Assembly (NCBI GenBank): GCA_017631275.1 | Contig: JAGBTQ010000008.1 | Coordinates: forward strand, 1 to 64,000 | From: Alistipes sp. | GTDB lineage: Bacteria; Bacteroidota; Bacteroidia; Bacteroidales; Rikenellaceae | DNA: 64,000 nt | Direction: 5' to 3' | Part shown: positions 9,004-55,101 of the stretch, in pieces | Position numbering within the stretch: the stretch's first letter is position 1 | Layout of the letters: each line of letters begins with the position of its first letter | Position numbers and translations under genes: made by a program | The notes under the pieces: generated by a model | Database searches by the model: none | The model's input: the letters and a program-made list of their open reading frames with translations, nothing else | Told to the model about the DNA's origin: nothing

Positions 9004-9130
9004 TTTGTTGTGATAAGGGGTCATCTTCGACCTATCCCAAAAAGTTGAGCACCCGAGGCTGTACGTTTGAGTACTATCCTCGGGTGCTCATTTTTGCGAT
9101 AAGCCAAATCTAACCCCTTCTGACAACAAA
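9004..9130 (+). repeat. Structured 3-prime repeat, copy A1 (after the zinc-ribbon gene)
   Basis: Begins right after the stop codon. Outer arms: TTTGTTGTGATAAGGGGT at the left and ACCCCTTCTGACAACAAA at the right, pairing except at a 3-nt bulge. Inner stem: GAGCACCCGAGG (9047-9058) with CCTCGGGTGCTC (9078-9089), followed by ATTTTTG. The loop contains two GTAC blocks able to pair with each other. The inner hairpin plus T-run looks like an intrinsic terminator carried inside a longer fold. Five relatives occur in the window. Confidence 0.85.
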
Positions 9131-9453
9131 CCAGTGTGCTAATTGAGGTGGCGGGGGTGAGATAAATAGGATCGCTTCGCTTGATGGGTAACGCTTTGCT
9201 CGATAAGAAAAGCCTCATTTATCCCATCTATCCCATTTATCCTATAAAAATCATCCCATAGGTATACTCTAATTAAAGTAGTTGCACGATGCACTCGGCA
9301 CACTTCTGACAACAAACTATTTAGGATGTTAAATAAGTTCTGCCCTTCTGACAACAAACCGATGCGCGGGTAACAATATTTTAAATATCTCTAAAAAAAA
9401 TAATGGGCTATCCAATCGCGGATGGCCCATTATTATATATTGGTATAACTCGG
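9131..9453. repeat. Intergenic stretch with G-run/C-run hairpin repeat (B1), right-end triplets and a gene-end duplication
   Basis: No gene is seen. It holds a short linker shared with other copies (GTGCTAATTGAGGTGG here), then B1 at about 9161-9260: a G-rich arm and a C-rich arm made of TCCCAT units that can fold back on each other. The 15-mer CTTCTGACAACAAAC, the right end of A1 (9117-9131), recurs at 9303-9317 and 9345-9359. The segment 9261-9305 closely resembles 9441-9485, the 3-prime end of msrC and its spacer. Confidence 0.75.
9393..9437 (-). terminator. Intrinsic terminator of the PyrD-like/cinA/pncB/msrC operon
   Basis: On the minus strand AATAATGGGCCATCC pairs with GGATAGCCCATTATT around a 6-nt loop, followed by eight T. 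It starts 17 bp after the msrC stop codon. Confidence 0.85.
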
Positions 9454-9921
9454 TTATAGTAGTTGCACGATGCGTTCGAGCCACTCTTGGTCGGTGCTAT
9501 CGAATGTAGCAAGGTGTTCGCTGTCGATATCCAAGACGCCGATAATCTCGTCATTGTGCCACATGGGAACAACAATCTCGCTGCGTGAGAGCGAGCTGCA
9601 AGCAATATGTCCTGGGAACTTATCTACATCCTCGACCACTATGGTGCGCTCCTCGCTCCAGGCTGTGCCACAGACACCCTTACCCTTAGCGATGCGTGTG
9701 CATGCCATAGGGCCTTGGAATGGACCTAAAACAAGCTCGCCACCCACAACACGATAGAACCCAGTCCACCAAAAACCAAAGGTATGGTGGAGCATGGAAC
9801 TAACATTTGCCATGTTGGCAATAGGGTCGCTCTCGGCGGCAACGACAGCTGCTATCTGCTTATATAGCAACTCATATTTTTCGTTCTTGCCACCCTCGGC
9901 AATCGCAAGACTCTCAGCCAT
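9454..9921 (-). CDS. msrC: Free methionine-(R)-sulfoxide reductase (GAF-domain fRMsr)
   Basis: A 155-residue single GAF-domain enzyme that reduces free methionine-R-sulfoxide using Cys chemistry and thioredoxin. The three functional Cys are all present with family spacing: MACTRIAKG (Cys74), GKGVCGTAW (Cys84) and HIACSS (Cys108), followed by SEIVVP. It is the last gene of a minus-strand operon: its ATG overlaps the pncB stop as TAATG, so translation is probably coupled. Its placement behind NaMN-forming genes hints at shared expression in redox stress, which is inference. Confidence 0.92.
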   Translation of the reverse strand: MAESLAIAEGGKNEKYELLYKQIAAVVAAESDPIANMANVSSMLHHTFGFWWTGFYRVVGGELVLGPFQGPMACTRIAKGKGVCGTAWSEERTIVVEDVDKFPGHIACSSLSRSEIVVPMWHNDEIIGVLDIDSEHLATFDSTDQEWLERIVQLL

Positions 9922-11087
9922 TACTGCGCTTGGTTGCGGAGGAGGTAGCGATATACTCTAATCTCCTCGGGATCGCCCATCTCCTTGCCCTCGACATCTG
10001 AGAGCTTAACGCAAAGCTCCTTAGGCTGGCGCGAGTTGATCTGGCATGACGATAGCTTCATGACGATGTTGCACGACGCATGGCCTGTGTCGCACGTGAG
10101 GTTTGTGCCGATGCCGAACATGCACTTGATGCGGCCCTCGCATGCCTGCTTAATCTGCACGGCCTTCTCGAAGTTAAGCGAGTCGCTAAACACGATGCTC
10201 TTGGTCATAGGGTCAATGCCGAGCTCCTTGTAGCGGTTGATAGCCATGTCGATAAATGCGATTGGGTCGCCAGAGTCCTGACGCACACCGTCGAAGAGGC
10301 AGGCGTGCTTCTTCGAGAAGTTCTTGAAGAAGACCTCCGAGCCAAAGCTGTCGGTGAGGGCAGTGCCGAGGTAGCCATCATAGACCTTCACCCAGTCCTC
10401 CATCGTGAGGTAGTTAGCCATACGTGGACCACCCTTTACAGCCGCGATGAACATAGGCAACTCGTGAGGATATGTGCCAATCATCTTCATGTCGAGCTCC
10501 ATGGCAAGGTGGCAGTTAGATGTGCCTGTGCAGCCACAAGGGTTGTTTTTGAGGTGCTTGATGACCATGCGCTGAACGTCGTATGAGAAGCGGCGACGTG
10601 TGCCAAAGTCAGAGAATATCAGATTGTTATCGCGTGCTATCTGTTCCTTCTCTTCAAGTCGCTTAATCATGGCCTCAGTATCGTAGCTGTTGCGTAGGTG
10701 GAAGAGCTCCGACACGGTGGCAAGGATAGGTATCTCGTAGAGTGTTACCTTGTACATGTAGTCGGTGACGTTTATCTGAAGGTGCTTCTCCTCGTCGAGC
10801 CACACGTTGATTTTCGATGCTTCAAACCTAAAGCCCTTGAGCCACTCGAAGTAGTTCTGCGGGATATACTTGCAGTGCTTGTTCATGTAGTTGAACTCGT
10901 CGTCGCTAAGCGCCAAGCGCTCCAAGGCTCTGAACTCAGCCTTTAGGTCCTCTAAAAAGTCCTCGTCAAACTCAGTCTTGGCACGGTCGTTAAAGGTGAA
11001 TGTGCCTATAGCTTGTGGATAGAGCTTGAAGTAGGCGTACGAAGTAGTGAACTTGTACAAGTCGGTGTCTAAGATTGAACGAATCAT
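9921..11087 (-). CDS. pncB: Nicotinate phosphoribosyltransferase
   Basis: A 388-residue NAPRTase that joins nicotinate and PRPP, with ATP, to form nicotinate mononucleotide in the Preiss-Handler route to NAD. The N-terminus LDTDLYKFTTSYAYFKLYP is the family hallmark. Later signatures are FGTRRRFSYDVQ near residue 160, the SNCHLAMEL loop, and DSGDPIAFI plus FSDSLNFEKAV, which line the PRPP site. Length fits the E. coli-type enzyme. It lies 20 bp after cinA and overlaps msrC. Confidence 0.95.
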   Translation of the reverse strand: MIRSILDTDLYKFTTSYAYFKLYPQAIGTFTFNDRAKTEFDEDFLEDLKAEFRALERLALSDDEFNYMNKHCKYIPQNYFEWLKGFRFEASKINVWLDEEKHLQINVTDYMYKVTLYEIPILATVSELFHLRNSYDTEAMIKRLEEKEQIARDNNLIFSDFGTRRRFSYDVQRMVIKHLKNNPCGCTGTSNCHLAMELDMKMIGTYPHELPMFIAAVKGGPRMANYLTMEDWVKVYDGYLGTALTDSFGSEVFFKNFSKKHACLFDGVRQDSGDPIAFIDMAINRYKELGIDPMTKSIVFSDSLNFEKAVQIKQACEGRIKCMFGIGTNLTCDTGHASCNIVMKLSSCQINSRQPKELCVKLSDVEGKEMGDPEEIRVYRYLLRNQAQ

Positions 11088-11107
11088 ACCATCTATTTTG
11101 TTTGTGT

Positions 11108-12349
11108 TTATAATCTCTTTAACTCCTCGTAGAGCATCTCAATGGCGTATGCTGATGCTCGGCTAATTATCTGTGAGCGGTCGGTGCCCGAGTTGCGCAT
11201 CACGGCATACGAGCCATTGGGTGTTGCTATGGCAATCCACACAGTGCCCACGGGCTTTTGGCGTGTGCCACCACCAGGGCCTGCGATGCCGGTTGTTGCT
11301 ATGGCGTAGTCGGCACCCGCAACACGGCGAACACCCTCGGCCATCTCCAATGCCACAACCTCACTAACTGCGCCGAAGCACTCTATGTTGGTGAAGTCAA
11401 CACCGAGAATATCACGCTTAGCCTCATTTGAGTACGATGTTACGCCCGCCATGAAGTATTGCGATGCCCCTGCCATGGCTGTGAACTTTGCTGATATTGT
11501 GCCTCCCGTGCAGCTCTCGGCAACGGCAAGTTTAAGACCTCGCTCGATGAGTATATCGTGCACAAGGCTCTCGACGGTTGCGCCCTCCATACCCACAATG
11601 TTATCGCCGATAATCTTGCGTAGCTTCTCTATCTGTCTATCTATTTCATGCTCTGCTTCGCTCTTATCTACGTTGTATGCCGAGAGGCGCAGACGTACGA
11701 TGTTGGGTGCTGGGAGATAGGCAAGGTGCAGATAGTCGGGTAGCGCATCTTCCCACTCTTCGATGCGTTCGGCGAGTATCGACTCGGGAATGCCACGAGT
11801 GATGATTGTGCGGTGTACAATGTCGTTAAGCGTGAACTGTGCCTTGAGTCGTGGTATAACCTCGTCGTCCATGAGGTGCTCCATCTCGAAGGGTACGCCA
11901 GGGAGCGACACGATAACCTTGCCCTCGTGGTTGAACAACATGCCTGGGGCTGTGCCGTGGGCGTTGTGTAGCACGGTGCAGCACTCGGGTAGCATTGCCT
12001 GATTGCGGTTAAGCTCCGTGAACTGAATGCCACGACGCTCCAACAACTGGCGCACATGCTCGCCCTCGGCGGGGTTGTATACGAGCTTCGAACCGAAAAA
12101 CTCTGCGAGGGTGTGCTTCGTAATATCATCTTTTGTGGGGCCTAAGCCACCGGTGATGATTATCACGTCAGATGATTGCAGCGTGCGACGAAGTGTGTCC
12201 ACTATCTGCTCACGGCTATCGCCAATAGATAGCTTCTCGCCAATGGCTATGCCAATGGCGTTTAGCTTGCGTGCTATCGACACGCTGTTGGTATCGACAA
12301 TCTGACCGATAAGTATCTCGTCGCCTATGGTTATTATCGTGGCTCTCAT
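11108..12349 (-). CDS. cinA: CinA: competence/damage-inducible protein with NMN deamidase domain
   Basis: A 413-residue two-domain protein. The N-terminal MoCF/COG1058 domain (about 1-170; IGDEILIGQIVDTNS, GGLGPTKDD) is linked to ADP-ribose or nucleotide pyrophosphatase activity in homologues. The C-terminal CinA domain (about 255-410) has AESCTGGTISAKFT, the active site of PncC-type NMN deamidases that convert NMN to NaMN, and TGIAGPGGGT. Full length with both active regions intact. It shares a 4-bp ATGA overlap with the upstream PyrD-like gene. With pncB downstream, both products feed NaMN. Confidence 0.93.
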   Translation of the reverse strand: MRATIITIGDEILIGQIVDTNSVSIARKLNAIGIAIGEKLSIGDSREQIVDTLRRTLQSSDVIIITGGLGPTKDDITKHTLAEFFGSKLVYNPAEGEHVRQLLERRGIQFTELNRNQAMLPECCTVLHNAHGTAPGMLFNHEGKVIVSLPGVPFEMEHLMDDEVIPRLKAQFTLNDIVHRTIITRGIPESILAERIEEWEDALPDYLHLAYLPAPNIVRLRLSAYNVDKSEAEHEIDRQIEKLRKIIGDNIVGMEGATVESLVHDILIERGLKLAVAESCTGGTISAKFTAMAGASQYFMAGVTSYSNEAKRDILGVDFTNIECFGAVSEVVALEMAEGVRRVAGADYAIATTGIAGPGGGTRQKPVGTVWIAIATPNGSYAVMRNSGTDRSQIISRASAYAIEMLYEELKRL

Positions 12350-13374
12350 TGTTTTGTGTTGTTTGTGGCAATCTGTGTTATTGCCCTCTTGAGTAGCTTA
12401 AATCCGTTCTCGCGTAGTCCGCTGCTTAGTGCTACGAGCGATGCTCCAGCCTCCATCATGCGCTCTATGTCGTTGGGGGTCATCATGCCACCCGTGCCGA
12501 TGATAGGGTAGTTGTGCTCGCTGCGCTGGGCGATGTATCGCACCATCTCGATAGCTCGCTCGGTGAGCATTGCACCACATATTGCACCCTTCTCGGTTGT
12601 GCACATTGCTGTTGAGCCAGCCACAGCCTCGATACCGTCGAGGGGTGTTTCGATGAGGATGTCGATGATTGTGTCGAGCTCCTCTCGGCTGATGTCGGGC
12701 GATATTTTTAGGAGTATAGGGCGGTAGTCGAGCTGACCACGTCTAAACTCAAACATAGGCTCGATGAGTGCTAAAATCTCCTCACGAGTGTGGGGTACAT
12801 AGCGCTTAGCGGCAGTGTTGCACGCAATGTTGATGACGAAGAAATCGACATACTGATATGTGTTGCGGAAGACGCGTAGATACTCCTTGACGATGTTTTT
12901 TGCAGGTGTTGTCGTGAGCTTGCCGATGTTGCAGCCTATGACAAGGTTGTGGTTGTGCTTGGTGCGCTTGCGAATATTCTGCATCACGTACTCTAGACCT
13001 CGGCTTGGTGCTCCAGAGTTGTTGATAAGCGACGACTCCTTGCGTAGGCGCTTAAGGCGTGGACGTGGTGTGCCGGGCTGAGGGCGTGGGGTTACCGAGC
13101 CAATCTCTACAAAGCCGAAGCCACACGATGCCAACTCGTCGAGGTGGTCACCATTGGGGTCGTAGCCCGCAGCAATGCCTATGGGGTTGCTAAAGTGTAT
13201 GCCCATAACCTCGCGCTCGAGGTTGATGTTACGTGGGGAGAGTGTGCGATGAAGAAGCCTCTTGCCAAAGGGCAGTGCTCCCACGAAACTTAGCATCGCA
13301 AGCTGAATGCGATGTGATGCCTCGGCGGGAAAGAGGCGTATGATAAGTTGTAGCAGCGAGCGTCTCATTGCCAT
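12346..13374 (-). CDS. pyrD: Class 2 dihydroorotate dehydrogenase homologue with altered substrate pocket
   Basis: A 342-residue FMN flavoprotein of the PyrD class 2 fold: an N-terminal helical membrane-association segment, then the barrel. Fold signatures are kept: GFGFVEIGSVTPRPQPG, a Lys in LLKISPDI, and the FMN-phosphate loops PIIGTGGM and ALSSG. Key orotate/FMN residues differ from the family: the usual D-K-N-G is DPNG, the N-R-x-G-F-N loop is INNSGAPS, the catalytic NxSSPN loop is NIACNTAAKR (a Cys in the base position), and the T-N-T segment is AGSTAM. It may therefore use another substrate. First gene of the NaMN operon, with its own promoter. The fold is certain; classical PyrD function is doubtful. 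Confidence 0.75.
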   Translation of the reverse strand: MAMRRSLLQLIIRLFPAEASHRIQLAMLSFVGALPFGKRLLHRTLSPRNINLEREVMGIHFSNPIGIAAGYDPNGDHLDELASCGFGFVEIGSVTPRPQPGTPRPRLKRLRKESSLINNSGAPSRGLEYVMQNIRKRTKHNHNLVIGCNIGKLTTTPAKNIVKEYLRVFRNTYQYVDFFVINIACNTAAKRYVPHTREEILALIEPMFEFRRGQLDYRPILLKISPDISREELDTIIDILIETPLDGIEAVAGSTAMCTTEKGAICGAMLTERAIEMVRYIAQRSEHNYPIIGTGGMMTPNDIERMMEAGASLVALSSGLRENGFKLLKRAITQIATNNTKQ

Positions 13375-13393
13375 TCAAATCTGAATAATAATA

Positions 13394-13424: not shown

Positions 13425-13473
13425 CCTTGTGCTCAGAATATTTTACATATTCTGGATTTTTGGCGGGTGAGGT

Positions 13474-17800: not shown

Positions 17801-19051
17801 ATGAAGAAAATCTTGTTTATGGTAGCCGCTATGGCTACGCTTGTTTCTTGCGGTTCGCACGGAGAGTTCTACTTCGACGATGTGGAGAATCGTGCCTATA
17901 ACAACACTGAGGCAGAGTTCGACTCATTGTCGTATGCCTATGGTGTTGAGATGGCTTTGCCTTTGTACACTCAGCTCAAAGATTTTGATTGCAACCATGA
18001 GCTATTCATTGAGCTTGCTCAGCAGTATCTTGCAACTGATGCAGAGTCGTTCCCTGATATCGAGACTGTGAATGCCGAGTTCGCTAAGTTTGATAAGGAG
18101 TGCATGCGTCCTTATATGATTGCTAAGCAGCGTCGTATGTTCGATCACAGTGCCGACTTGGAGCTTCCTGCAATCTACAACGAGAAGTATACTCGTGACA
18201 TGTTCACAAAGTGGATGTCTCAGATGGCCTCTTACATGATTGTGTCTGCAGCTGCTCCTGTAAACATTCACTATGTTGTGGAGGGTATCAAGGGTACTAA
18301 GGATATTATTGGCGATCAGCAGGAGAACGCTATGATTCGTCTTGACTCTGCTACTCAGGCAAGACTTCAGCAGCATCGCTCATATATCCAGAACTACTAT
18401 CGCAATGAGCTTCCTAAGTATCATATGACACGCACTGAGCAGTGGTTGAAGCGCGTTGCTCAGCAGCCAGGTGTTCAGCCTTTGGCTATTGGCAACGACA
18501 CAGTGTACTATCGTATTAACAACCCTGGTGGTGTTAAGATCTCTGCTCCAACCGACTCTGTATCTCTCGACTATGAGATCTACAGCTACCGTGGTAAGCT
18601 TCTTCAGTCTTCTAAGACTCAGTTGAAGAGCCTTGAGCAGCGTATTATCGATACTAAGGCTAACAAGGAATTGACAGACTCAGCACGTTATGCTATGATT
18701 CGTCAGAGCGAGAAGATTATCAATGACCTTAAGAATCACATCGCACCAGTGAGCACTATCCGCATGGAGGTTATCAAGCACTGCTTGTCGCTTGTTGGTG
18801 AGTATGGTAGCATCACAGTTTGGGCACCTACTAAGTTTGCTCCTCCATCACGCGATCTTATGCCTAATGAGGGTATCGTGGTTGATTTCGAGGTTAAGCG
18901 CATCGTTCCAGGTAGTGCTGCGCCTGTTATGCCAGAGCTTCCTAAGAAGTCGACACAGACCGTAAAGCCTTCGAATGCTCCTGAGAAGACTGGTGTTGAG
19001 CCAGCGCAGGGTGGTCGTGTGCCAATGAAGATTGTGCCTGCAAAGAAGTAA
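17801..19051 (+). CDS. FKBP-like lipoprotein with insert in the isomerase domain
   Basis: A 416-residue lipoprotein (lipobox LVSC at about residue 17). It repeats the layout of its upstream neighbour: SLSYAYGVEMALPLY starts the FKBP N-terminal region, and a C-terminal FKBP-like fold begins at VSLDYEIYSYRG. That fold is interrupted by about 55 helix-prone residues (KSLEQRIIDTKANKELTDSA onward) before SITVWAPTKFAP. Catalytic aromatic residues are largely missing. A Pro/Lys-rich tail ends the protein. Probable paralogue specialised for folding cell-envelope proteins. The structured repeat A2 starts 4 bp after the stop. Confidence 0.8.
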   Translation: MKKILFMVAAMATLVSCGSHGEFYFDDVENRAYNNTEAEFDSLSYAYGVEMALPLYTQLKDFDCNHELFIELAQQYLATDAESFPDIETVNAEFAKFDKECMRPYMIAKQRRMFDHSADLELPAIYNEKYTRDMFTKWMSQMASYMIVSAAAPVNIHYVVEGIKGTKDIIGDQQENAMIRLDSATQARLQQHRSYIQNYYRNELPKYHMTRTEQWLKRVAQQPGVQPLAIGNDTVYYRINNPGGVKISAPTDSVSLDYEIYSYRGKLLQSSKTQLKSLEQRIIDTKANKELTDSARYAMIRQSEKIINDLKNHIAPVSTIRMEVIKHCLSLVGEYGSITVWAPTKFAPPSRDLMPNEGIVVDFEVKRIVPGSAAPVMPELPKKSTQTVKPSNAPEKTGVEPAQGGRVPMKIVPAKK

Positions 19052-19054
19052 TTA

Positions 19055-19181
19055 TTTCTTGTGATAAGGGGTCATTCTCGGCCCATCACACAAAGAAAGA
19101 CCCCTTGGGCTGTACTATTTGTACTATCCCGAGGGGATCTTCTTTTGTGATAGACCAAGCCTAACCCCTTCTCGCGAGAAA
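19055..19181 (+). repeat. Structured 3-prime repeat, copy A2 (after the second FKBP-like gene)
   Basis: Outer arms TTTCTTGTGATAAGGGGT and ACCCCTTCTCGCGAGAAA pair with two G-T wobbles. Inner stem GACCCCTTGGG pairs with CCCGAGGGG-ATC (one T-G wobble), extended by AAGA/TCTT, around a loop with two GTAC blocks. Same size (127 bp) and same position relative to a stop codon as A1. Confidence 0.85.
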
Positions 19182-19390
19182 TCGGTGCGCTGATTGAGGT
19201 GGTAGATTAAGGAGTTTAGTGAATTTAATGAATTTAAGGAGTTTAGTGATAGCCTTTCCTTAATTTCCTTAAATTCCCTAATCTCCCTATTTTAGCGCCC
19301 CCATCTCTCCCATCTATCCCATTCGTCCCACTTTAAAGCCCCTACCAAGCACGCAGGGCTTATCTCTTCCTACGTGTCACGCGTCACTAA
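19182..19390. repeat. G-run/C-run hairpin repeat (B2) and plain spacer
   Basis: No gene is seen. After the shared linker GTGCGCTGATTGAGGTGG comes B2 (about 19203-19331): a purine arm built of AATTTAAGGAG-like units and a pyrimidine arm of TTTCCTTAAATTCCC and TCCCATCTATCCCATTCG units. The arms can fold back on one another. The remainder to 19390 shows no clear feature. Confidence 0.7.
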
Positions 19391-24064: not shown

Positions 24065-26875
24065 ATGAAAAAACTTATTTTTTCACTCGTAGCACTTGTA
24101 TTCGGTGTTATGGGTCTTTCGGCTCAGACTCCGCTTCCGCTTGATGCTGAGGTGCGAGTAGGTCGCCTTGAGAATGGCATGACTTACTTCATTCGTCACA
24201 ACGAGAAGCCAAAGGGTCAGGCAAGCTTCTACATCTACCACGATGTAGGTGCTGTTCAGGAGGATGACGACCAGCAGGGCTTGGCTCACTTCCTTGAGCA
24301 CATGGCATTCAACGGCACAAAGAATCTCCCTGGTAAGGAGATGATTGAGAAGTTGGAGACTATCGGTGTGCAGTTTGGTTACAACCTTAACGCATTTACT
24401 TCATGGGATTGCACCGAGTATATGATTAAGGATTGCCCAATCACTCCTGAGAACCTCGACCTTGCACTTCTTATCCTTCACGACTGGTCACAGTTCATCG
24501 CTTTGGACCCAGCCGAGATCGACGAGGAGCGTGGCGTAATCATGGAGGAGCTTCGTACACGTGACGGCGCTAACCTTCGTGCTCAGTACGACATGTTCGA
24601 GAACTTGTTCAAGGGCACTATCTACGAGCAGCGCAACCTTATTGGCTACCTCGATGGCCTTAAGTCGTTCGACCACACTGCTTTGGAGGCGTTCTACAAG
24701 AAGTGGTATCGCCCAGAGTATCAGGCTATCGTTATCGTTGGTGACATCGACGTTGACGAGGTAGAGGCTAAGATTAAGGAGCTCATGTCTGACATCCCTG
24801 CTTCACCAGCTGATGCTGCACAGAAGGAGGTAGTATTCGTTGAGCCTACCGAGGAGCCTATCGTATCTGTATTCTCTGACGTTGAGCTTACTCGTTCAAG
24901 CGTGATGATGTTTGCTCGTCGCGAGGCACTTCCTAAGGAGATTAAGAACACCGTAGAGGCTTACTCTTTGGACGTTGTTTACAACCTTGCTACAATGATG
25001 ATGAACAACCGCTTCGAGGAGATCGCTCAGAAGGCTGACGCTCCATTCTTGGGTGGTGGTATGTCTGAGGGTGGCATCGGTGTATGTCCTACAATGGACG
25101 CTACAAGCTTCTCTGTTGTTGCTCACGAGGGTCGCCTCATCGATGGCTTCCGTGCTATGTACACCGAGATGGAGCGTATGCGTCGTCACGGCTTCACTGC
25201 AGGCGAGCTTGAGCGCGCTAAGGAGGAGCTTAAGATGTATGCTGAGCGCCAGTACACTAACCGCAACGATGTTCGCAACGACGAGTATGCACAGCGCTAC
25301 CTCGATTTCTATGCTCAGGGTACTCCTATGATGGACGCTGAGACTGAGTGGCAGCTCGACCAGCAGATGATTGCAAGCATCAACATCGACATCTTCAACC
25401 AGCTCTACAGCCAGCTTACAGCACCTGACCAGAACCTCGTAATCCTTGCTCGCACACCTGAGAAGGAGGGTCTTGTTATCCCTACTGAGGAGGAGTTCTT
25501 GACAGTTATCGCTGAGGTGAAGGCATCAGAGGTTGAGCCTTACAAGGACAACACCGTAATCGTTCCACTTATCGACGAGTCAGTTGTATTGAAGGGCTCT
25601 AAGGTGAAGAAGACTCAGACTAACGAGTCGCTCGGCTACACTGAGTGGACATTGAAGAATGGCATTAAGGTTATCGTTCGTCCATCTACACTCAAGGCTG
25701 ACGAGGTGCAGATTAGCGCCGTGTCTAAGGGTGGTAAGTCGTTGCTCTCTGACGATGCACTCTTCACTGGTAACATGCTCGGCATGGTAATGGGTCAGTC
25801 AGGTATCAGCAAGTTCTCGGCTACTGAGCTCGCTAAGCAGCTTACAGGTAAGAACGCTCATGCTGGTGTTGGTGTTGGCGACTACGAGCACGCAGTGAAC
25901 GCTGGTGGCTCACCTAAGGATATCGAGACTATCCTTCAGCTCATCTATCTCCAGTTTACCGACCCACGTTTCGACCAGACAGACCTCGACAACATCAAGA
26001 AGATGTATGTTCCTTACTTCAAGAATATGGAGCAGGATCCTTCATACGCAGTAAGCAAGAACTACATCGAGACTCTCTATGGCAACCACCCACGTCGCCA
26101 GATGACTAAGGCTGAGGACTTCGAGGCATTGACTCTCGAGAACTTGGCAGATGTTCACAAGCAGCTCTACAGCTACGCTAACGACTTCCGCTTCATCATC
26201 GCTGGTAACGTACAGCTCGAGACTTTGAAGCCACTCGTTGAGAAGTATATCGGCTCATTGCCAACAGCTAAGAAGTCGCAGTACTCTGCTCAGGACGATG
26301 GCGTACGTGTTGTTAAGGGCGAGGTTACTAACGACTTCACAACAAAGATGCAGCAGCCTAAGGTATCTGTATTCTTGACATACTCTGGCGACTTGGCTGA
26401 CAACGCTAAGAACCGCCTCGTGCTCGACCTTCTTAGCCGTGCTCTCGACTCACGCTACCTCATCTCTATCCGCGAGGAGAAGGGTGGTACTTATGGCGTG
26501 CAGGTACAGGGTGGCATCGAGAAGTATCCTTACGAGCACTACGAGATGCTCATCGCATTCGATACTAACGAGCAGCTTGCTGACGAGCTCGTAGAGATCT
26601 GCGTGGCAGAGATCAAGAAGATTGCCGAGAACGGTCCTATCGCTGAGGATATCGAGAAGTCACGTGAGTTCCTTAAGAAGAACTACAACAACGTGCTCGA
26701 GAACAACTCAGGTTGGATGTCGGCTATCACACGTTGGTATGAGGAGGGCTACAACTACAAGGAGGATTACCTCAAGTTGGTTGAGAGCGTAACTTACGAC
26801 GACGTGAAGGCTATGGCTGAGAAGGTGCTTGCAGATGGTAACTTTGCGAAGGTTATTATGCGCCCAGCCAAGTAA
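24065..26875 (+). CDS. M16 family zinc peptidase (pitrilysin/insulinase type), secreted
   Basis: A 936-residue protein with an N-terminal signal peptide (cleavage near LSAQ, residue 21). The inverted zinc motif HFLEH lies at residues 75-79 with downstream Glu in EERGVIMEEL. Two tandem M16 pairs are present; the second half (from about residue 520) has no HxxEH and is the structural partner, as in pitrilysin. It probably degrades peptides in the periplasm. Strongly biased codons suggest high expression. Structured repeat A3 starts on the base after the stop. Confidence 0.93.
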   Translation: MKKLIFSLVALVFGVMGLSAQTPLPLDAEVRVGRLENGMTYFIRHNEKPKGQASFYIYHDVGAVQEDDDQQGLAHFLEHMAFNGTKNLPGKEMIEKLETIGVQFGYNLNAFTSWDCTEYMIKDCPITPENLDLALLILHDWSQFIALDPAEIDEERGVIMEELRTRDGANLRAQYDMFENLFKGTIYEQRNLIGYLDGLKSFDHTALEAFYKKWYRPEYQAIVIVGDIDVDEVEAKIKELMSDIPASPADAAQKEVVFVEPTEEPIVSVFSDVELTRSSVMMFARREALPKEIKNTVEAYSLDVVYNLATMMMNNRFEEIAQKADAPFLGGGMSEGGIGVCPTMDATSFSVVAHEGRLIDGFRAMYTEMERMRRHGFTAGELERAKEELKMYAERQYTNRNDVRNDEYAQRYLDFYAQGTPMMDAETEWQLDQQMIASINIDIFNQLYSQLTAPDQNLVILARTPEKEGLVIPTEEEFLTVIAEVKASEVEPYKDNTVIVPLIDESVVLKGSKVKKTQTNESLGYTEWTLKNGIKVIVRPSTLKADEVQISAVSKGGKSLLSDDALFTGNMLGMVMGQSGISKFSATELAKQLTGKNAHAGVGVGDYEHAVNAGGSPKDIETILQLIYLQFTDPRFDQTDLDNIKKMYVPYFKNMEQDPSYAVSKNYIETLYGNHPRRQMTKAEDFEALTLENLADVHKQLYSYANDFRFIIAGNVQLETLKPLVEKYIGSLPTAKKSQYSAQDDGVRVVKGEVTNDFTTKMQQPKVSVFLTYSGDLADNAKNRLVLDLLSRALDSRYLISIREEKGGTYGVQVQGGIEKYPYEHYEMLIAFDTNEQLADELVEICVAEIKKIAENGPIAEDIEKSREFLKKNYNNVLENNSGWMSAITRWYEEGYNYKEDYLKLVESVTYDDVKAMAEKVLADGNFAKVIMRPAK

Positions 26876-27001
26876 TTTATTGTGATAAGGGGTCATCTTT
26901 GACCTATCCCAAAAAGCTGAGCACCCGAGGCTGTAGGTTTACTACTATCCTCGGGTGCTCACTTTTGCGATAGGGCAAATCTAACCCCTTCTAACAATAA
27001 A
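26876..27001 (+). repeat. Structured 3-prime repeat, copy A3 (after the M16 peptidase)
   Basis: Outer arms TTTATTGTGATAAGGGGT and ACCCCTTCTAACAATAAA: the fourth base differs from A1 (A instead of G) and its partner has changed to T, a compensating pair. Inner stem GAGCACCCGAGG with CCTCGGGTGCTC, then ACTTTTG. It begins immediately after the stop codon. Confidence 0.85.
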
Positions 27002-27217
27002 TCTATTTCTTGCTGATTTAGGTGAGCAGGGGCTGGGATAAATGGGGGCGCTAACGCTTGATGGGAGAGATGGGAGAGATGGGAGCGCTTCGCTTGATGG
27101 GTAACGCTAACGCTTGATGGGAATTTCCCATTTATCCCATTCGTCCCATTTATCCCATTCGTCCCATTTATTCCATTCGTCCCATCTATCCCATTAATCC
27201 CGTGCGAAGCACACCTT
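27002..27217. repeat. G-run/C-run hairpin repeat (B3), largest copy
   Basis: No gene is seen. After the linker (TGCTGATTTAGGTGAGCAGG) the G arm at about 27031-27120 contains GATGGGAGAGATGGGAGAG and GCGCTTCGCTTGATGGG units; the C arm at about 27121-27200 is a tandem of TCCCATTTATCCCATTCG. The arms are near-complementary, so the region could extrude as a long cruciform or form a long RNA stem. Confidence 0.75.
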
Positions 27218-31188: not shown

Positions 31189-31379
31189 AGGGTAGCGCTT
31201 TGCTTTATGGGGTTTTGTGGGGTCGATAGGGGCGCTTCGCTTGATGGGAGAGATGGGTAACGCTTCGCTTGATAGGGTTGATAGGGTTGATGAGGCGAGG
31301 GTATCATAGTCCTATTCTCCCTATCTTCCCTATCTTCCCTATCGACCCCATCTGTCCCATTTATCCCATCCTCCCCCTC
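31189..31379. repeat. G-run/C-run hairpin repeat (B4), inverted partner of B5
   Basis: G arm with GCGCTTCGCTTGATGGG and TTGATAGGG units, C arm with TATTCTCCCTATCTTCCC and TCCCATTTATCCCATCC. The 30-nt block 31207-31236 and the 47-nt block 31278-31324 each recur exactly, in inverted orientation, at 35183-35212 and 35122-35168. No coding capacity was accepted here. Confidence 0.8.
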
Positions 31380-35026: not shown

Positions 35027-35073
35027 GGAAAAGTTAAAGGTTAAAGGTGAAAGGGGAGAGGTGAAAGGGGAGG
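35027..35073. repeat. AAAGGTGAAAGG tandem repeat (C3), reverse of C1/C2
   Basis: Imperfect 7-8-bp units TTAAAGG, TGAAAGG and GAGAGG directly upstream of the NifX-like gene on its coding strand. This is the same repeat as C1 and C2 in opposite orientation. Confidence 0.7.
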
Positions 35074-35080
35074 AGCACGG

Positions 35081-35248
35081 GATTAATAGGGAAGATAGGG
35101 AGAATAGGGAGAATAGGGAGAATAGGGAGAATAGGACTATGATACCCTCGCCTCATCAACCCTATCAATCCTATCAAGCTTTAGCGCCCCTATCGACCCC
35201 ACAAAACCCCATCGAGCGTTAGCGCTCCCATCGCTCCCAATATTCTCT
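35081..35248. repeat. G-run/C-run hairpin repeat (B5), inverted partner of B4
   Basis: Plus-strand arm of repeated GAATAGGGA units (35090-35135), then a C arm of CTATCAA and TATCGACCCC units. It is the reverse complement of B4 with two exact shared blocks of 47 and 30 nt. On the minus strand it directly follows repeat A6, giving the same A-then-B order as elsewhere. Confidence 0.8.
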
Positions 35249-35261
35249 TGCCCCCACCCAC

Positions 35262-35330
35262 AAAACAAGACCCCCAGGGAGAGTACTATGTTGTACGCCC
35301 GAGGGGTCTTACGTTATGAGATAGGCTTAA
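35262..35330 (-). repeat. Structured 3-prime repeat, copy A6 (after mdh, minus strand)
   Basis: Read on the minus strand, the core is AAGACCCCTCGGG, then a loop with GTAC and AGTACT, then CCCTGGGGGTCTT followed by GTTTTGTG. It lies 16 bp after the mdh stop in mdh orientation. The outer arms are less clear than in A1-A4. Confidence 0.7.
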
Positions 35331-35345
35331 GATGCCTACTATTAA

Positions 35346-36338
35346 TTAGAGATTTGGGTTAATTTTTGACCACTCCTCGATAGCTGGAACGATACCCAAA
35401 GTTACCAACTCGTCACGCATCTTGCAGAGGTGAGCGTATGAAGCGTCGAGCTTAGCAATCTCCTCGTCAGTACCCACAGGCATCTTGTATGAGCAGCCGT
35501 TCTGGTCGAGAACAGTGTCCATAGCCATCATGATGTGGTTGTAGCGCTCGTTAGATACGTAAGTACCTGCAGGGAAACGGAATGCCTCACCACCCATTAC
35601 CGAGCGAATCATCTCTACAGAGAGGTATGATGGGCTCTGGAATGATGAGCGACCACGAAGCTTGATGATAGCAGCACCACCCTGGGTTACAGCAGTCTTC
35701 ATTGCCTCCCACTCCTCAGCTGGGAACTCCTCAGTGCCGATGATGTCGGTAAGCTTGCGACCAGCAATCTTCACTGCGCTGCCGAATACTGCCATCTGCT
35801 CGCCATGACCGCCATAAGTTGCGCAACCCTCAATCTCCGACTGCATAACGCCGAACTTCTTAGCAAGAGCGCTCTTAAGACGTGTAGTGTCAAGACCTGC
35901 AAGTGTAGTCACCTGACCTGGCTTAAGACCAGAGTAGAGCAATGTAACAAGACCAGTAAGGTCGGCAGGGTTGAAGATGATAACAACATGCTTTACGTCT
36001 GGGCAGTAAGTCTTAATGTTCTTACCAAGCTGCTCAGCGATCTCGCAGTTGCCCTTAAGCAAGTCCTCACGTGTCATGCCCTCCTTACGTGGAGCACCAC
36101 CAGAAGAGATGATATACTTAGCATCCTTGAATGCCTCAGCCACGTCAGTAGTAGCAGTGATGTTTACATTGTCGAAGCCGCTCTGGCGCATCTCCTCGGC
36201 AACACCCTCTGGAGAGAATACGTCGTAGAGGCAGATGTTAGATGTGAGGTTCATCATAAGAGCTGACTGAACCATGTTAGAGCCGATCATGCCGGCAGCA
36301 CCAACGATAACGAGCTTGTCGTCTGTAAGAAAAGCCAT
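35346..36338 (-). CDS. mdh: Malate dehydrogenase
   Basis: A 330-residue NAD-dependent lactate/malate dehydrogenase family enzyme. The Rossmann motif VGAAGMIGSNM lies near residue 12; the family active-site region is recognisable in YGGHGEQMAVFGS (catalytic His) and in GGAPRKEGMTREDLL with the substrate-binding Arg. Bacteroidales carry this long form annotated as malate dehydrogenase. Highly biased codons suit a central fermentation enzyme. Its transcript probably ends in repeat A6. The minus-strand box TAATTTTG (36412-36405) is a possible -7 element. Confidence 0.9.
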   Translation of the reverse strand: MAFLTDDKLVIVGAAGMIGSNMVQSALMMNLTSNICLYDVFSPEGVAEEMRQSGFDNVNITATTDVAEAFKDAKYIISSGGAPRKEGMTREDLLKGNCEIAEQLGKNIKTYCPDVKHVVIIFNPADLTGLVTLLYSGLKPGQVTTLAGLDTTRLKSALAKKFGVMQSEIEGCATYGGHGEQMAVFGSAVKIAGRKLTDIIGTEEFPAEEWEAMKTAVTQGGAAIIKLRGRSSFQSPSYLSVEMIRSVMGGEAFRFPAGTYVSNERYNHIMMAMDTVLDQNGCSYKMPVGTDEEIAKLDASYAHLCKMRDELVTLGIVPAIEEWSKINPNL

Positions 36339-47979: not shown

Positions 47980-47982
47980 GCC

Positions 47983-48825: not shown

Positions 48826-48840
48826 AACTACAATAAACTA

Positions 48841-50603: not shown

Positions 50604-50610
50604 ATAGATT

Positions 50611-51930
50611 ATGACAACAAGAGCATTTCAGAAAGTATATACTAAGATTGACAATATCACCAAGGCTACCATCACGCTTCGTGCTACGGGCGTAGGTAAC
50701 GACGAGCTTGCTACTGTAGGTGGTCGCCTAGCTCAGGTGGTAAAGATTATGGGCGATAAGGTTACACTTCAGGTGTTTGCAGGTACCGAGGGTCTTGCAA
50801 CCGACTCTGAGGTGGTATTCCACGGCGAGCCACCAGTATTGCGTGTGTCAGACGCCTTGGCTGGTCGCTTCTTCAATGCCTATGGTGAGCCACTCGAGGG
50901 TGGTGAGCAGATTGAGGGTGAGCCACGTCAGATTGGTGGCCCTACTGTAAACCCATTCCGTCGTTTGCAGCCATCAGAGCTTATCGCAACAGGTATTGCA
51001 GGTATCGACCTTAATAACACTATCGTGTCTGGTCAGAAGATTCCATTCTTCGCTGACCCTGATCAGCCTTACAACGTGGTTATGGCTGACGTAGCCCTCC
51101 GTGCTAAGGCAGACAAGATTATCTTGGGTGGTATGGGTCTTACCAACGACGACTTCCTCTACTTCAAGCAGACATTCGAGAATGCTGGTGCATTGGACCG
51201 TATCGTATCGTTCGTAAACACTACAGATAACCCTCCAGTAGAGCGTCTTTTGGTGCCAGATATGGCATTGACTGCTGCCGAGTACTTCGCAGTAGATAAG
51301 GGCGAGAAGGTGCTTGTGCTTTTGACCGATATGACCCTTTATGCCGATGCTTTGGCTATCGTGTCAAACCGTATGGACCAGATTCCATCAAAGGACTCAA
51401 TGCCAGGTTCACTATATTCAGACCTTGCTAAGATCTACGAGAAGGCCGTTCAGTTGCCAAATGGTGGTTCTATCACCATCATCGCTGTAACAACCCTCTC
51501 TGGTGGCGATATCACTCACGCTATTCCTGATAACACCGGTTATATCACTGAGGGTCAGCTATTCTTGCGTAACGATACCGACACAAGTAAGGTTATCGTA
51601 GATCCATTCCGTTCGTTGTCACGTCTTAAGCAGCTTGTTATCGGCAAGAAGACCCGTGAGGATCACCCACAGGTTATGAATGCCTGCGTACGTTTGTATG
51701 CCGATGCTGCAAATGCTAAGACTAAGCTCGAGAACGGTTTCGACCTTTCTGACTACGACAAGCGTGCTTTGGACTTTGCTCGTGACTACTCAGAGAAGCT
51801 TCTCTCTATCGACGTAAACATCGAGATTGAGCAGATGCTCGACACAGCATGGACATTGTTTGCTAAGTACTTCGAGCGTGGTGAGGTAAGTATCAAGCAG
51901 GAGCTTGCTGAAAAATACTGGAAAGCATAA
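50611..51930 (+). CDS. atpB: V-type ATPase regulatory subunit B
   Basis: A 439-residue non-catalytic partner of subunit A. The B-type nucleotide site lacks the full P-loop (IVSGQKIPFFADPDQPYN near residue 135), and the conserved region LTDMTLYADALAIVSNRMDQ appears near 230. It aligns with NtpB along its length. It is preceded by a strong Shine-Dalgarno sequence, uncommon in this phylum. Confidence 0.95.
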   Translation: MTTRAFQKVYTKIDNITKATITLRATGVGNDELATVGGRLAQVVKIMGDKVTLQVFAGTEGLATDSEVVFHGEPPVLRVSDALAGRFFNAYGEPLEGGEQIEGEPRQIGGPTVNPFRRLQPSELIATGIAGIDLNNTIVSGQKIPFFADPDQPYNVVMADVALRAKADKIILGGMGLTNDDFLYFKQTFENAGALDRIVSFVNTTDNPPVERLLVPDMALTAAEYFAVDKGEKVLVLLTDMTLYADALAIVSNRMDQIPSKDSMPGSLYSDLAKIYEKAVQLPNGGSITIIAVTTLSGGDITHAIPDNTGYITEGQLFLRNDTDTSKVIVDPFRSLSRLKQLVIGKKTREDHPQVMNACVRLYADAANAKTKLENGFDLSDYDKRALDFARDYSEKLLSIDVNIEIEQMLDTAWTLFAKYFERGEVSIKQELAEKYWKA

Positions 51931-51939
51931 TAAAGGCTT

Positions 51940-52554
51940 ATGGCAATCAAATTTCAATATAACAAGACTTCGCTTAATGAGCTAAATAAACAGCTCAAAA
52001 TCCGAAAGAATGCCCTTCCTACAATCAAGAGTAAGGAGAGTGCACTCCGTTCGGAGGTTATGCGAGCGAAGGACTCTGCACTCGCTTACCGTAGGGAGTT
52101 GGACGAGCTTAAGGCTCAGTACGACTATATGGTGCAGCTGTGGGGCGAGTTTGATTGTGATCTAATCCGCATCGTCGATGTCGAGCTATCGTCACAGAAG
52201 ATTGCGGGCGTGCGCATACCTATATTAGATAATATAATCTACGACGAGAAACCTTACGACCTATTCTCAGCCCCTGTGTGGTATGCTGAGGGTATTCGTG
52301 TGCTCAAGGCGATGTCGAAGCTAGGTATCGAGTTCGAGGTGTACAACCATAAGATGGAACTCTTGGATTATGCGCGACGCAAAACTACTCAGAAGGTAAA
52401 CCTCTATGAAAAGGTGCAGATACCTGGATATGAGGATGCCATACGTAAGATTAAACGATTTATGGAGGACGAGGAGAACCTAAGTAAGTCGGCTCAGAAG
52501 ATTGTGAAAACACGTCAGGCGCAAGCCGAGGCCATGGAGGGGTCTAACGCATGA
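51940..52554 (+). CDS. atpD: V-type ATPase subunit D
   Basis: A 204-residue central-stalk coiled-coil subunit. Two long helices (residues 5-75, KFQYNKTSLNELNKQLKIRK onward, and 130-195) are joined by a short domain containing VRIPILDNIIYDEKPYDLF. It works with the rotor. The final ATGA overlaps the start of subunit I. Confidence 0.9.
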   Translation: MAIKFQYNKTSLNELNKQLKIRKNALPTIKSKESALRSEVMRAKDSALAYRRELDELKAQYDYMVQLWGEFDCDLIRIVDVELSSQKIAGVRIPILDNIIYDEKPYDLFSAPVWYAEGIRVLKAMSKLGIEFEVYNHKMELLDYARRKTTQKVNLYEKVQIPGYEDAIRKIKRFMEDEENLSKSAQKIVKTRQAQAEAMEGSNA

Positions 52555-54392
52555 TTAGTAAAATGATTAGATACGACATCCTACTCCATGCTAAGGAGCA
52601 GGAGCGATTCGTAAACGAGCTTCGTGAGTTGGGACTCGTGGATATCACAACTACTGGCTGGGAGCCAACCGAGGCTGACCGAGCACTTCTTCTCGAGATC
52701 GAGGCATATAATCGTGCTATAGAGGCTCTTCAGGCATTTGCTAAGGGCGAGGAGTTTAAGGCTGACGCTGAGCCATACTTCGATGGCGCTGCGGCTTACG
52801 ACCGTTATGTCGAGTTGCAGGCACGTCGCTCAGAGATTCTTCAGAAGATAGCACAGCTCGAGAAGAGCGCATCGGATGTTGAGCCATGGGGTAGCTTCTC
52901 ACGTGCCGACATCGAGCGTCTTGCAAACGAGGGCGTTACACTACGCACCTTCGTGGCACAGCCAGCTCAGTACGATGCACTCGTTGCAGAGGATGCTGAG
53001 GGCGTTACTGTTGTTGAGATTAATCGTACTCAGTCGTTTGTATATTTCGCTGTTGTGACACGTGGCATAATGGTCAATGTCGATGGTCAGGAGGTACACC
53101 TTCCCGATAGCGACTATAAGGCAACTGTAGCTGAGATTGAGGCTCTTAAGGCTGAGAACGAGGCGCTTAATGCCGACTACTCACGCATCGCTCGTTCGGT
53201 AGATGTTATCGCTGAGCGTCGTGCAGAGCTCAAGGAGCAGCTCCAGGGCTTGAAGGTTGATGCTATGGCTACACGTGAGGCTGATGGCAACCTCCTCGTT
53301 TTGGAGGGCTGGGCTGAGGCCGAGACCGCAGATAAGGTTGATAAACTTCTCGAGGAGTATCCTAACCTTGTATATATGCGTCGTGATGCTACTATCGATG
53401 ACGAGGCACCTGTGAAACTTAAGAATAATAAGTTTGCACGCTTGTTCGAACTTATCGGCTCGATGTACGCCTTGCCTAAGTATGGTACTTTCGACCTTAC
53501 AGCGATCTTTGGCCCATTCTACATGCTATTCTTTGCTATCTGCTTGTGCGACGCGGGCTACGGTCTTGTGTTGTTGGCAGTGGGCTTGGCACTACTATTT
53601 AAGGGTGGCGAGAGCATGCGTCAGGCAGCCTTGCTATCTATCGTATGTGCCTCAGCAACAGTGGCATTTGGATTCTATGCCAACTCGTTCTTCGGACTTG
53701 CTATTTCGGACTTCGCTCCCGTTATCAAGTTCCTCGACTTCCAAAATCAGTTCTTCTCGATATCTTTGGCTATCGGTGTAGTTCAGATCTTGGTGGGTAT
53801 GGCAATCAATATTGTGATGCGAACAAAGCTCTTTGGCTTCACCTCGACATTTGGCCTCTTGGGTTGGTTTATTATCCTGCTTACTGGCTCGCTTGCTGTA
53901 GGTTTGCCAATGTTTGGTATCGGCATCCCAGGCTTCGACACATCATCGCCAGTGTTCTACGGCTTGATGGGTGTTGGTGCGGTGCTCATGTTGTTGCTCA
54001 ACAACATTAAGCGCAATCCGCTTATCAACCTTGGCTCGGGCCTTTGGGACGCTTACAACAACATCACAGGTCTGCTTAGCGACGTGTTGAGCTACATTCG
54101 TCTATTTGCCATCGGTTTGTCGGGTGGTGTATTGGCGCAGGTATTCAACTCGTTGGCTATGGGTCTATCGGGTCTTGATGCTATGCCTGAGGGCACACCT
54201 TGGTACGGCATGATAATGCCTATCGTGGCAGCATCGATAATCTTGCTTATCGGTCACGGTATCAACCTATTCATGTCGGCAATCTCGTCATTTGTTCACC
54301 CTATGCGTTTGACATTTGTCGAGTTTTATAAGAATGCAGGTTTCGAGATGGGTCAGCGCTCATTCGATCCTGTGCGTAAAATGAAAGAATAA
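52551..54392 (+). CDS. atpI: V-type ATPase membrane subunit I
   Basis: A 613-residue subunit a/I homologue: N-terminal cytoplasmic coiled-coil half (about 1-300) contacting the peripheral stalk, and C-terminal half with about eight membrane helices (PFYMLFFAICLCDAGYGLVL, SYIRLFAIGLSGGVLAQVFN) forming the ion half-channel; the essential Arg lies in YIRLFAIGLSGG. Overlaps subunit D by 4 bp. Confidence 0.95.
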   Translation: MISKMIRYDILLHAKEQERFVNELRELGLVDITTTGWEPTEADRALLLEIEAYNRAIEALQAFAKGEEFKADAEPYFDGAAAYDRYVELQARRSEILQKIAQLEKSASDVEPWGSFSRADIERLANEGVTLRTFVAQPAQYDALVAEDAEGVTVVEINRTQSFVYFAVVTRGIMVNVDGQEVHLPDSDYKATVAEIEALKAENEALNADYSRIARSVDVIAERRAELKEQLQGLKVDAMATREADGNLLVLEGWAEAETADKVDKLLEEYPNLVYMRRDATIDDEAPVKLKNNKFARLFELIGSMYALPKYGTFDLTAIFGPFYMLFFAICLCDAGYGLVLLAVGLALLFKGGESMRQAALLSIVCASATVAFGFYANSFFGLAISDFAPVIKFLDFQNQFFSISLAIGVVQILVGMAINIVMRTKLFGFTSTFGLLGWFIILLTGSLAVGLPMFGIGIPGFDTSSPVFYGLMGVGAVLMLLLNNIKRNPLINLGSGLWDAYNNITGLLSDVLSYIRLFAIGLSGGVLAQVFNSLAMGLSGLDAMPEGTPWYGMIMPIVAASIILLIGHGINLFMSAISSFVHPMRLTFVEFYKNAGFEMGQRSFDPVRKMKE

Positions 54393-54430
54393 ACAAATAA
54401 TAATTAACAATTTAAAACATTTTAACAATT

Positions 54431-54880
54431 ATGAGTTCAGCATTAATTTTGGCTTATGTAGGCGTTGTCCTCATGGTCGGTGTATCAGGTTTGGCTTCAG
54501 CTGTTGGTACTGCACGTTGCGGTATGGCTGCAGTAGGTGCTTTGAAGAAGAATGGTGGTGCTTTCGGTAGCTACATGATTCTTTCAGCGCTCCCAGGTTC
54601 ACAGGGTCTTTACGGTTTCGTAGGTTACTTCATGGTAGCTTCTAAGATCGTTGCAGAGATGTCTATGCTTACAGCAGTAGGTGTATTTGGCGCAGGTTTG
54701 TTGATGGCTATCGTATGTTTGTCATCTGCAGTTATGCAGTCAAAGGTTTGTGCTAATGGTATCGCTGCTATTGGTAACGGTAACGACGTTATGGGTAAGA
54801 CTCTTATCCTTGCTGCGTTCCCAGAGCTTTATGCTATCTTGGGTGTGGCTGCGACATTCCTTATCTCTAATGCAATCTAA
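54431..54880 (+). CDS. atpK: V-type ATPase ring subunit K (16-kDa type, predicted Na+-binding)
   Basis: A 149-residue four-helix proteolipid with two hairpins, like Enterococcus hirae NtpK. The Na+ ligands known from NtpK appear: S-Q in ALPGSQGLYGF (Thr64/Gln65 positions), Gln in VMQSKVCANG (Gln110) and Glu in FPELYAILG (Glu139). This predicts a sodium-translocating ring, an inference from conserved ligands. The last gene of the operon; structured repeats A4 and A5 follow. Confidence 0.93.
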   Translation: MSSALILAYVGVVLMVGVSGLASAVGTARCGMAAVGALKKNGGAFGSYMILSALPGSQGLYGFVGYFMVASKIVAEMSMLTAVGVFGAGLLMAIVCLSSAVMQSKVCANGIAAIGNGNDVMGKTLILAAFPELYAILGVAATFLISNAI

Positions 54881-54883
54881 TAA

Positions 54884-55011
54884 TTTCTTGTGATAAGGGC
54901 GCATCTGCGGCACATCATTAAAAAGTTGACTGCCCTGGGCTGTACGTCAAAGTACTATCCCAGGGTAGTCACTTTTTTGATGCACCACATCTCACGACTT
55001 CTAACAAGAAA
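54884..55011 (+). repeat. Structured 3-prime repeat, copy A4 (after V-ATPase subunit K)
   Basis: Outer arms TTTCTTGTGATAAGGGCG and CGACTTCTAACAAGAAA: the fourth base is C and its partner G, another compensating change. Inner stem GACTGCCCTGGG with CCCAGGGTAGTC (one G-T wobble), then ACTTTTTTG. Loop with GTAC blocks. It likely ends the V-ATPase transcript. Confidence 0.85.
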
Positions 55012-55015
55012 TTTT

Positions 55016-55101
55016 TTTCTCGTGATAAGGGCGCATCTACGGCGCATGCTTAAAAGGCTAACTACCCGAGAGGTCTTCTTTTGTGATAGACTAAGCCTGA
55101 C
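55016..55101 (+). repeat. Degenerate structured repeat, copy A5
   Basis: The left part (CTCGTGATAAGGGCGCATCT) resembles A4, the right part (GAGGTCTTCTTTTGTGATAG) resembles A2. The loop with GTAC blocks and half the inner stem are missing, as if by an internal deletion or recombination between two copies. Confidence 0.65.

Follow-up and report, generated by a model that had tools for sequence, protein, structure and literature searches.

Dispersed palindromic units of an Alistipes genome seem to stand in for terminators behind genes and have their better fold on the opposite strand

Transcription terminators are usually regarded as local, independently evolved sequences. Two described palindromes come close to the elements treated here in other respects: the enterobacterial repetitive intergenic consensus (ERIC) is an imperfect palindrome of about 127 bp, and an attC site lies directly after a gene, with the consensus boxes RYYYAAC (R'') and GTTRRRY (R'). 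We describe a family of imperfectly palindromic units of ~127 bp that follow genes in Alistipes sp., starting from a window of 64,000 nucleotides (contig JAGBTQ010000008.1, positions 1 to 64,000). The window is part of a 1.92-Mb ruminant-gut Alistipes-type metagenome-assembled genome (MAG), 87.5% complete and called G000 below. Repetitive extragenic palindromic (REP) sequences with a GTAG tag are described, in the portion of PMC3733652 drawn on here, as having termini that often supply a stop codon and as forming families with alternative complementary stem residues and G-T pairs, and a portion of PMC12306157 states that REPs within 15 nt of a stop codon stall ribosomes. For attC, an excerpt of PMC4792948 gives a conserved palindromic structure with little conserved sequence and a favored bottom strand, and an excerpt of PMC8040213 gives 230 of 250 palindromic candidate RNAs from the human microbiome as predicted terminator stem-loops.

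By the features tested, the Alistipes units do not fit REPs with their associated tyrosine transposase (REP/RAYT), attC, ERIC, or a target-duplicating miniature inverted-repeat transposable element (MITE). Like the GTAG- and CGTC-tagged REPs and BIMEs served by RAYT, they are dispersed palindromes near gene ends, and the end of a unit can supply the stop codon: a TGA 10 nt inside the unit ends the longest open reading frame (ORF) in 9 of 168 arrays, and 6 of 11 units from a second bacterial family (genomes G358 and G840) carry the stop codon within their left end. They differ from REPs in length (~127 nt versus 20 to 40 bp), in their nested arms and conserved tip, and in a strand that is fixed by the gene; the unpaired GTAG or CGTC end tag was not found. 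With ERIC they share length and imperfect palindromy, but they are tied to gene 3' ends and arrayed, and unit 9004-9130 had no match in phages, plasmids, or 5,426 Escherichia coli genomes (E ≤ 1). The likeness to attC lies in conservation of structure over sequence, in one favored strand (the equivalent strand folds better here), and in the position after a gene; the attC core boxes, however, were found at unit ends in 0 of 484 strand readings, and no cassettes lie between units, which follow ordinary chromosomal genes. Bidirectional intrinsic terminators likewise have a hairpin with flanking A and T runs after genes. The units differ from them as a dispersed, homogenized family with a conserved GTAC tip, outer arms, and a minus-strand preference, and about half of the units have the stable hairpin plus U run that defines an intrinsic terminator. 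Word searches of the open PMC literature turned up no such family described from either Alistipes or Rikenellaceae.

With moderate confidence, we regard the units as dispersed terminator cassettes at gene 3' ends that are exchanged within genomes and have a further function on the minus strand. The basis is their placement and orientation, covariation, the scarcity of second terminators, nonorthologous turnover, and the fold and G.U bias of the opposite strand. In the mechanism that we propose, a unit of ~120 to 130 bp would begin where the last gene of a transcription unit ends and serve as that gene's terminator. The inner hairpin, with its GTAC/GTAC tip and usually a T run behind it, would do the stopping, and the outer arms would close a long hairpin. 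Sites would stay occupied while other units of the same genome replace their contents by gene conversion or cassette-like exchange, and the native terminator would become dispensable after a unit has arrived and could be lost.

The search beyond the window that the original prediction had called for returned 351 profile matches over all collected sequence, far above chance, of which 242 are distinct full units. Profile A1, which holds 32 copies from G000, was used for the profile search of collected sequences; over 137 sequences it gave 268 matches. These form 180 distinct arrays, of which 112 consist of a single unit, 51 of two, 16 of three, and one of four. Units within an array are mostly 2 to 4 nt apart, and adjoining ones often differ in the inner stem; 6 of 60 copies, truncated or decayed, were dropped from the comparison of ends and spacing. 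The common left end is TTTSTTGTGATAAG and the common right end CTTCTRACAASAAA, with the commonest unit ends reading TTTSTTGT and ACAASAAA. The tip is a GTAC/GTAC stem with a short loop, replaced by GTAG/CTAC in some units and, as seen by eye, by ATAC/GTAT in other species. Among hairpins in 895 regions after stop codons, the GTAC tip occurred 62 times, the runner-up 7 times, and the random windows gave 24, counts that share the bias of loci mostly fetched for their units. The commonest exact core pattern is present 67 times in G000 (47 forward and 20 reverse) and in 0 of 394 other genomes drawn from the phylum. A search of G000 with one copy found dozens more, dispersed and intergenic, with identities of up to 98%, and most copies also match the reverse complement of the query at 72 to 78%, as expected for an imperfect palindrome.

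The placement of the units relative to genes is nonrandom, as the original prediction had it. A long ORF ends between -12 and 150 nt from the array in 157 of the 168 arrays with enough upstream sequence, and 105 of the 168 (27 of 41 in G000 and 78 of 127 elsewhere) start at exactly 0 nt after the stop codon, which is TAA in 134 of the 141 arrays at a distance of -1 to 10 nt. With simple gene calls, the array lies on the strand of the preceding gene in 113 of 116 gene-flanked arrays; 48 arrays at locus edges were left unclassed. The next gene is convergent for 57 of these 113 arrays and codirectional for 56. When gaps of at least 100 nt were recounted with duplicates removed, arrays occupied convergent gaps in 56 of 70 cases, codirectional ones in 57 of 143, and divergent ones in 2 of 67. 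The loci of named relatives are a subset of the matches listed, each fetched for holding a unit; with the fetched-for gap of each such locus also left out, occupancy was 11 of 19, 14 of 71, and 0 of 39, respectively, and the window alone gives 4 of 5, 1 of 4, and 0 of 7. In bearing genomes, one structured family thus occupies about half or more of the convergent gaps examined (11 of 19 after exclusion and 56 of 70 overall). Exceptions were noted by eye: one unit abuts the CCA of a tRNA-Gln, another comes after a tRNA-Leu and its terminator, and in two cases an ordinary terminator with its T run precedes the unit.

Covariation was measured on the minus strand in alignment A2, which holds 20 of the 242 units, 14 of them picked for less than 80% identity among 127 units of the commonest tip class and 6 picked by hand. 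All its members belong to that class, to which the covariation figures apply. Over 44 consensus pairs, standard pairs fill 94.3% of cells, against 79.9% in column-shuffled alignments and 39 to 46% in slid controls, and changes on both sides affect 28 pairs and 128 cells, against 16.9 and 44 in the shuffles; 0 of 500 shuffles reached any observed covariation value. The predicted covariation thus exceeds both controls. Outer-arm positions 4 to 6 match in 178 of the 242 units (shuffled mean, 77; maximum, 96). The in-step changes described for these arms (GTTG/CAAC, ATTG/CAAT, and CTTG/CAAG) are present, and mismatched arms occur too, for example in unit 19055. Kept pairing had been put forward as an argument for a functional RNA. 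By itself it is insufficient, because folded single-stranded DNA would show pairing too.

A terminator-like inner hairpin, also foreseen, is found in many units. A detector of U-run hairpins accepted 131 of 242 units on the gene strand and 84 of 242 on the opposite strand, compared with 24 of 351 random stretches, and a T run of at least 4 follows the inner stem in 170 of 231 units on the gene strand versus 146 of 231 on the minus strand. A second U-run terminator stands within 90 nt behind the array at 9 of 108 unit-bearing ends, and 28 of 56 convergent partner genes without a unit of their own have an ordinary terminator. In species of the genus without units, ordinary terminators were seen by eye after the zinc-ribbon and ATP synthase subunit C genes, counting only rows for which the right gene end had been picked. 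The tRNA-Gln gene, found in 12 of 14 genomes searched and inspected by eye, is followed by its native terminator and a truncated unit in G000. In the close relative G062, a full unit stands straight after the CCA and the native terminator is missing; in ten further genomes, the stretch inspected holds a U-run terminator and lacks a unit. Units thus seem to stand in for ordinary terminators at gene ends, and from these sequence features we infer that they would terminate transcription in vivo.

Contents change at shared sites. G062 aligns with G000 in long blocks of 79 to 91% nucleotide identity, and both genomes have a unit at 18 of 18 alignable gene ends, an upper estimate because the G062 stretches were picked on contigs known to carry units. 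All three unit-bearing window ends found in G062 are occupied (3 of 3), and 24 of 24 unit-free window ends with an ortholog in those stretches have no unit there in the 90 nt inspected, most of these ends lying inside operons. A list of 19 pairs, which took in only pairs with a unit in both genomes and is not an occupancy measure, shows the turnover: a first unit matches its ortholog best in only 2 of 19, ten of the 19 orthologous units are less than 80% identical, and five are less than 75% identical at sites whose genes are 88 to 96% identical in the blast stretch. The site of unit 26876 holds a different subfamily in G062, 60% identical. Such turnover would reflect exchange of units at shared sites, by gene conversion or a cassette-like process. 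The earlier idea of mobile or spreading terminators stands as far as dispersal goes; close relatives share occupied sites with often different contents, and no target duplication was seen (direct repeats of at least 5 nt at 0.9% of 107 single-unit arrays versus 1.4% with shuffled flanks). Farther relatives (G003, G005, and G011) have units at zinc-ribbon, ATP synthase subunit C, or dehydrogenase gene ends; in G004, a candidate unit picked out by eye went undetected with the model. At L005, L012, L023, L042, L127, L083, L123, and other loci, partial duplications of the left end (6 to 23 nt) stand immediately before the full left end of the first unit; they are possible scars of unit exchange. 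At L058 6237, L096 7341, and L245 1501, an unusual left arm is read as coding up to the stop codon and the right arm matches it; such a left arm may have been copied from the target gene, and compensation under coding constraint accounts for unusual matching arms equally well.

We investigated the distribution of the family with two covariance models. R1, built on a gene-strand alignment of mixed subfamilies, holds only 9 pairs and served for detection only; R2 is a minus-strand model. With R1 at E ≤ 1e-6 and at most 23 matches scored per genome, 65 of 151 sampled genomes of the genus were positive, G000 included. The named relatives that have the repeat are MAGs labelled Alistipes sp. or Rikenellaceae bacterium, most of them also labelled ruminant hindgut (80 listed of at least 96 stretches). 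Several units lie at or near contig ends in G000 (contigs C2, C5, C23, and C32), where assemblies seem to break, so that unit counts in MAGs are probably low. In other Bacteroidales, 2 of 294 genomes scored with R2 (G358 and G309), and in the family of G358 2 of 13 genomes were positive (G358 and G840). The units of these two genomes lie -13 to +19 nt from an ORF end in 10 of 11 cases, the eleventh being the second of a tandem pair. The G309 locus (L244, 1501-1596) is a lone hairpin with the tip of an Alistipes unit and different ends. Rfam gave no match above the gathering score in the window, and 7 matches at E ≤ 1, all below that score, in six further loci. In IMG/VR the unit pattern occurred in 0 stretches; a shorter core pattern occurred in 4 contigs, which we regard as chance, since none of them holds a unit according to the covariance model.

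Several results weigh against reading the units as exchanged terminators. The simple detector fails on 111 of 242 units on the gene strand, loss of a native terminator was seen at one locus only, and arrays and units from related MAGs are nonindependent observations. The G309 match has no gene end directly before it, and the shared occupancy of G000 and G062 is, as stated, an upper estimate. Eight of the 19 orthologous units are still 91 to 98% identical, and unit 19055, which is outside the 19, persists in G062, where 2 of the 90 nt inspected differ. A unit under selection solely as a terminator should fold best as the gene's own RNA, yet the opposite is seen. With RNA parameters, the strand facing away from the gene has the better fold in 232 of 242 units, and with DNA parameters in 234 of 242; its mean RNA fold energy is -67.0 versus -52.9 kcal/mol on the gene strand, and it has 1063 versus 140 G.U pairs. 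For ordinary U-run hairpins at ends without a unit, the gene strand has the better fold (66 of 94, with a detector that selects that strand).

The same bias appears without a folding program: mismatches on the gene strand are 2135 A.C versus 413 G.T, with an A.C excess in 233 of 242 units and a G.T excess in 7. Where the next gene is convergent, the opposite strand folds better in 67 of 70 units, and where it is codirectional, in 64 of 66; being equally strong in both settings, the bias is independent of antisense transcription from the neighbor. A mutational origin of the asymmetry seems unlikely, because coding-strand deamination would shift it in the other direction. In G358 and G840, the opposite strand folds better in 11 of 11 units examined. 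The suggestion of a 3' untranslated region RNA of the preceding gene is, in that form, unsupported, the structure being better conserved on the other strand. Seen in two families, the preference is the strongest fact without an explanation and argues for a function of that strand; we take this as a second function, in which that strand would either take part in exchange as folded single-stranded DNA or block antisense transcription. The opposite-strand preference and the turnover of contents at shared sites go beyond the original prediction. The preference, set relative to the gene and present in two families of Bacteroidales, is an unusual and testable signature, unexplained by the repeat families compared. 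If units stand in for native terminators and are exchanged nonorthologously while their sites stay put, the old question of whether dispersed palindromes terminate, protect, or recombine becomes directly testable.

The units could instead be folded single-stranded DNA sites, with the opposite strand extruding as a hairpin, a recombinase or transposase binding or cutting it and swapping units between gene ends, and termination a side effect, much as for attC or REP/RAYT. We hold this to be unlikely, though worth serious attention. It accords with the one fixed strand that folds better, equally in convergent and codirectional settings, with the nonorthologous turnover, and with the tandem arrays. 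Two families share a conserved spacer with mismatches close to the ends (minus strand, YAG/ATC), and the tip loop differs at 0.44 to 0.47 per site versus 0.035 elsewhere among 18 near-identical units of G000, both of which also fit such sites. The absent attC boxes speak against it, as does the distribution of the Y1 transposase (RAYT): it was found in 2 of 151 genomes of the genus (G087 and G138), neither among the 65 unit-bearing ones, in MAGs that are incomplete. Y1/RAYT is thus unsupported as the driver of the units. No enzyme for the swapping was identified, and no genes were seen between the units of an array. A doubtful proposal in this direction is that of hairpin exchange sites, at which an enzyme of Bacteroidales would recognize the folded noncoding strand and swap terminator cassettes among gene 3' ends. 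If true, this would be attC-like single-strand recombination without integron cassettes, continuously redealing the 3' ends of a genome.

Improbable, in our judgment, is an antisense-facing RNA device, in which a minus-strand transcript would be functional, either ending transcription towards the gene or acting as a small RNA. On the minus strand, most mismatches of the palindrome become G.U pairs (233 of 242 units lean in this direction and 7 in the other). Several columns of the minus-strand alignment have U.G as their commonest pair, a GA/GA internal loop recurs in it, and convergent gaps are the most often occupied. However, for half of the classed arrays the next gene is codirectional, a setting in which antisense transcription should be scarce, and the bias is equally strong there; no promoter was seen by eye in the conserved tail, and T runs of at least 4 are rarer on the minus strand. 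An ordinary nonautonomous palindromic insertion repeat of the MITE or ERIC type, with structure and placement as by-products of its ends and of gene avoidance, would account for the length, the imperfect palindrome, the dispersed intergenic copies, and the ends that supply stop codons, but it is very improbable given target duplications no commoner than with shuffled flanks, 0-nt starts (105 of 168) and an orientation of 113 to 3 that are too precise for mere gene avoidance, covariation with preserved internal loops, and the 24 of 24 unit-free window ends that also lack a unit in the 90 nt inspected in G062.

The window contains four full units, one deleted copy, and one decayed copy (Table 1). 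The four full ones are real and fold far beyond shuffled sequence (RNA z scores of -9.4, -8.6, -11.3, and -6.9 in the order of their coordinates), and they start 0, 3, 0, and 3 nt after a stop codon. All six copies had been placed after gene ends, which is true of these four; the deleted copy trails another unit. Both remaining copies are present, the deleted one without a fold (z score of 0.28) and the minus-strand one decayed to its inner hairpin, through which alone the stretch 35262-35330 folds (z score of -4.3); extrapolated to full length, it would span ~35227-35352. The two GTAC blocks said to be always enclosed are replaced by GTAG/CTAC in unit 26876, a change that is itself compensated.

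Table 1. Units and associated features in the 64-kb window
Feature	Position	Strand	Remarks
Gene abutted by unit 9004	8263..9003	+	C4-type zinc ribbon domain, PF02591
Full unit	9004..9130	+	Commonest subfamily; arms TTTGTTGT/ACAACAAA; directly after TAG of zinc-ribbon gene
Tail motif after 9004 array	9134..9151	+	2 mismatches to commonest form
Orphan right-end unit fragment	9301..9325	+	Repeat family D13
Second orphan right-end fragment	9343..9367	+	Repeat family D13
Gene upstream of unit 19055	17801..19051	+	Without Pfam match; stop 3 nt before unit
Full unit	19055..19181	+	Second inner-stem subfamily; arms TTTCTTGT/GCGAGAAA, incompletely matched
Tail motif	19185..19202	+	Exact pattern match
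Gene abutted by unit 26876	24065..26875	+	M16 peptidase family
Full unit	26876..27001	+	Arms TTTATTGT/ACAATAAA; tip GTAG/CTAC (compensated)
Decayed unit	35259..35336	-	Best profile match; inner hairpin alone still folds
Gene before decayed unit	35346..36338	-	Lactate/malate dehydrogenase family
Gene upstream of unit 54884	54431..54880	+	ATP synthase subunit C family, probably V-type; stop 3 nt before unit
Full unit	54884..55011	+	Third inner-stem subfamily; arms TTTCTTGT/ACAAGAAA
Second unit of tandem pair	55016..55101	+	Internally deleted; fold lost

By eye, the tail motif at 9134-9151 looks like the decayed left end of a further unit, and the two orphan right ends behind unit 9004 are apparent remnants of lost units. 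The gaps behind the arrays (9152-9236, 19203-19340, 27020-27200, and 35040-35240) hold purine-rich and then pyrimidine-rich tracts. These make up additional large inverted repeats, such as that of 31267-31377 with 35069-35179 (111 nt, 86% complementary). A long ORF at 56430-59696 contains an internal repeat of 281 nt with 70% identity (57120-57400 and 57723-58003) and, at 58578-59315, a run of short repeats with many proline and glutamate codons.

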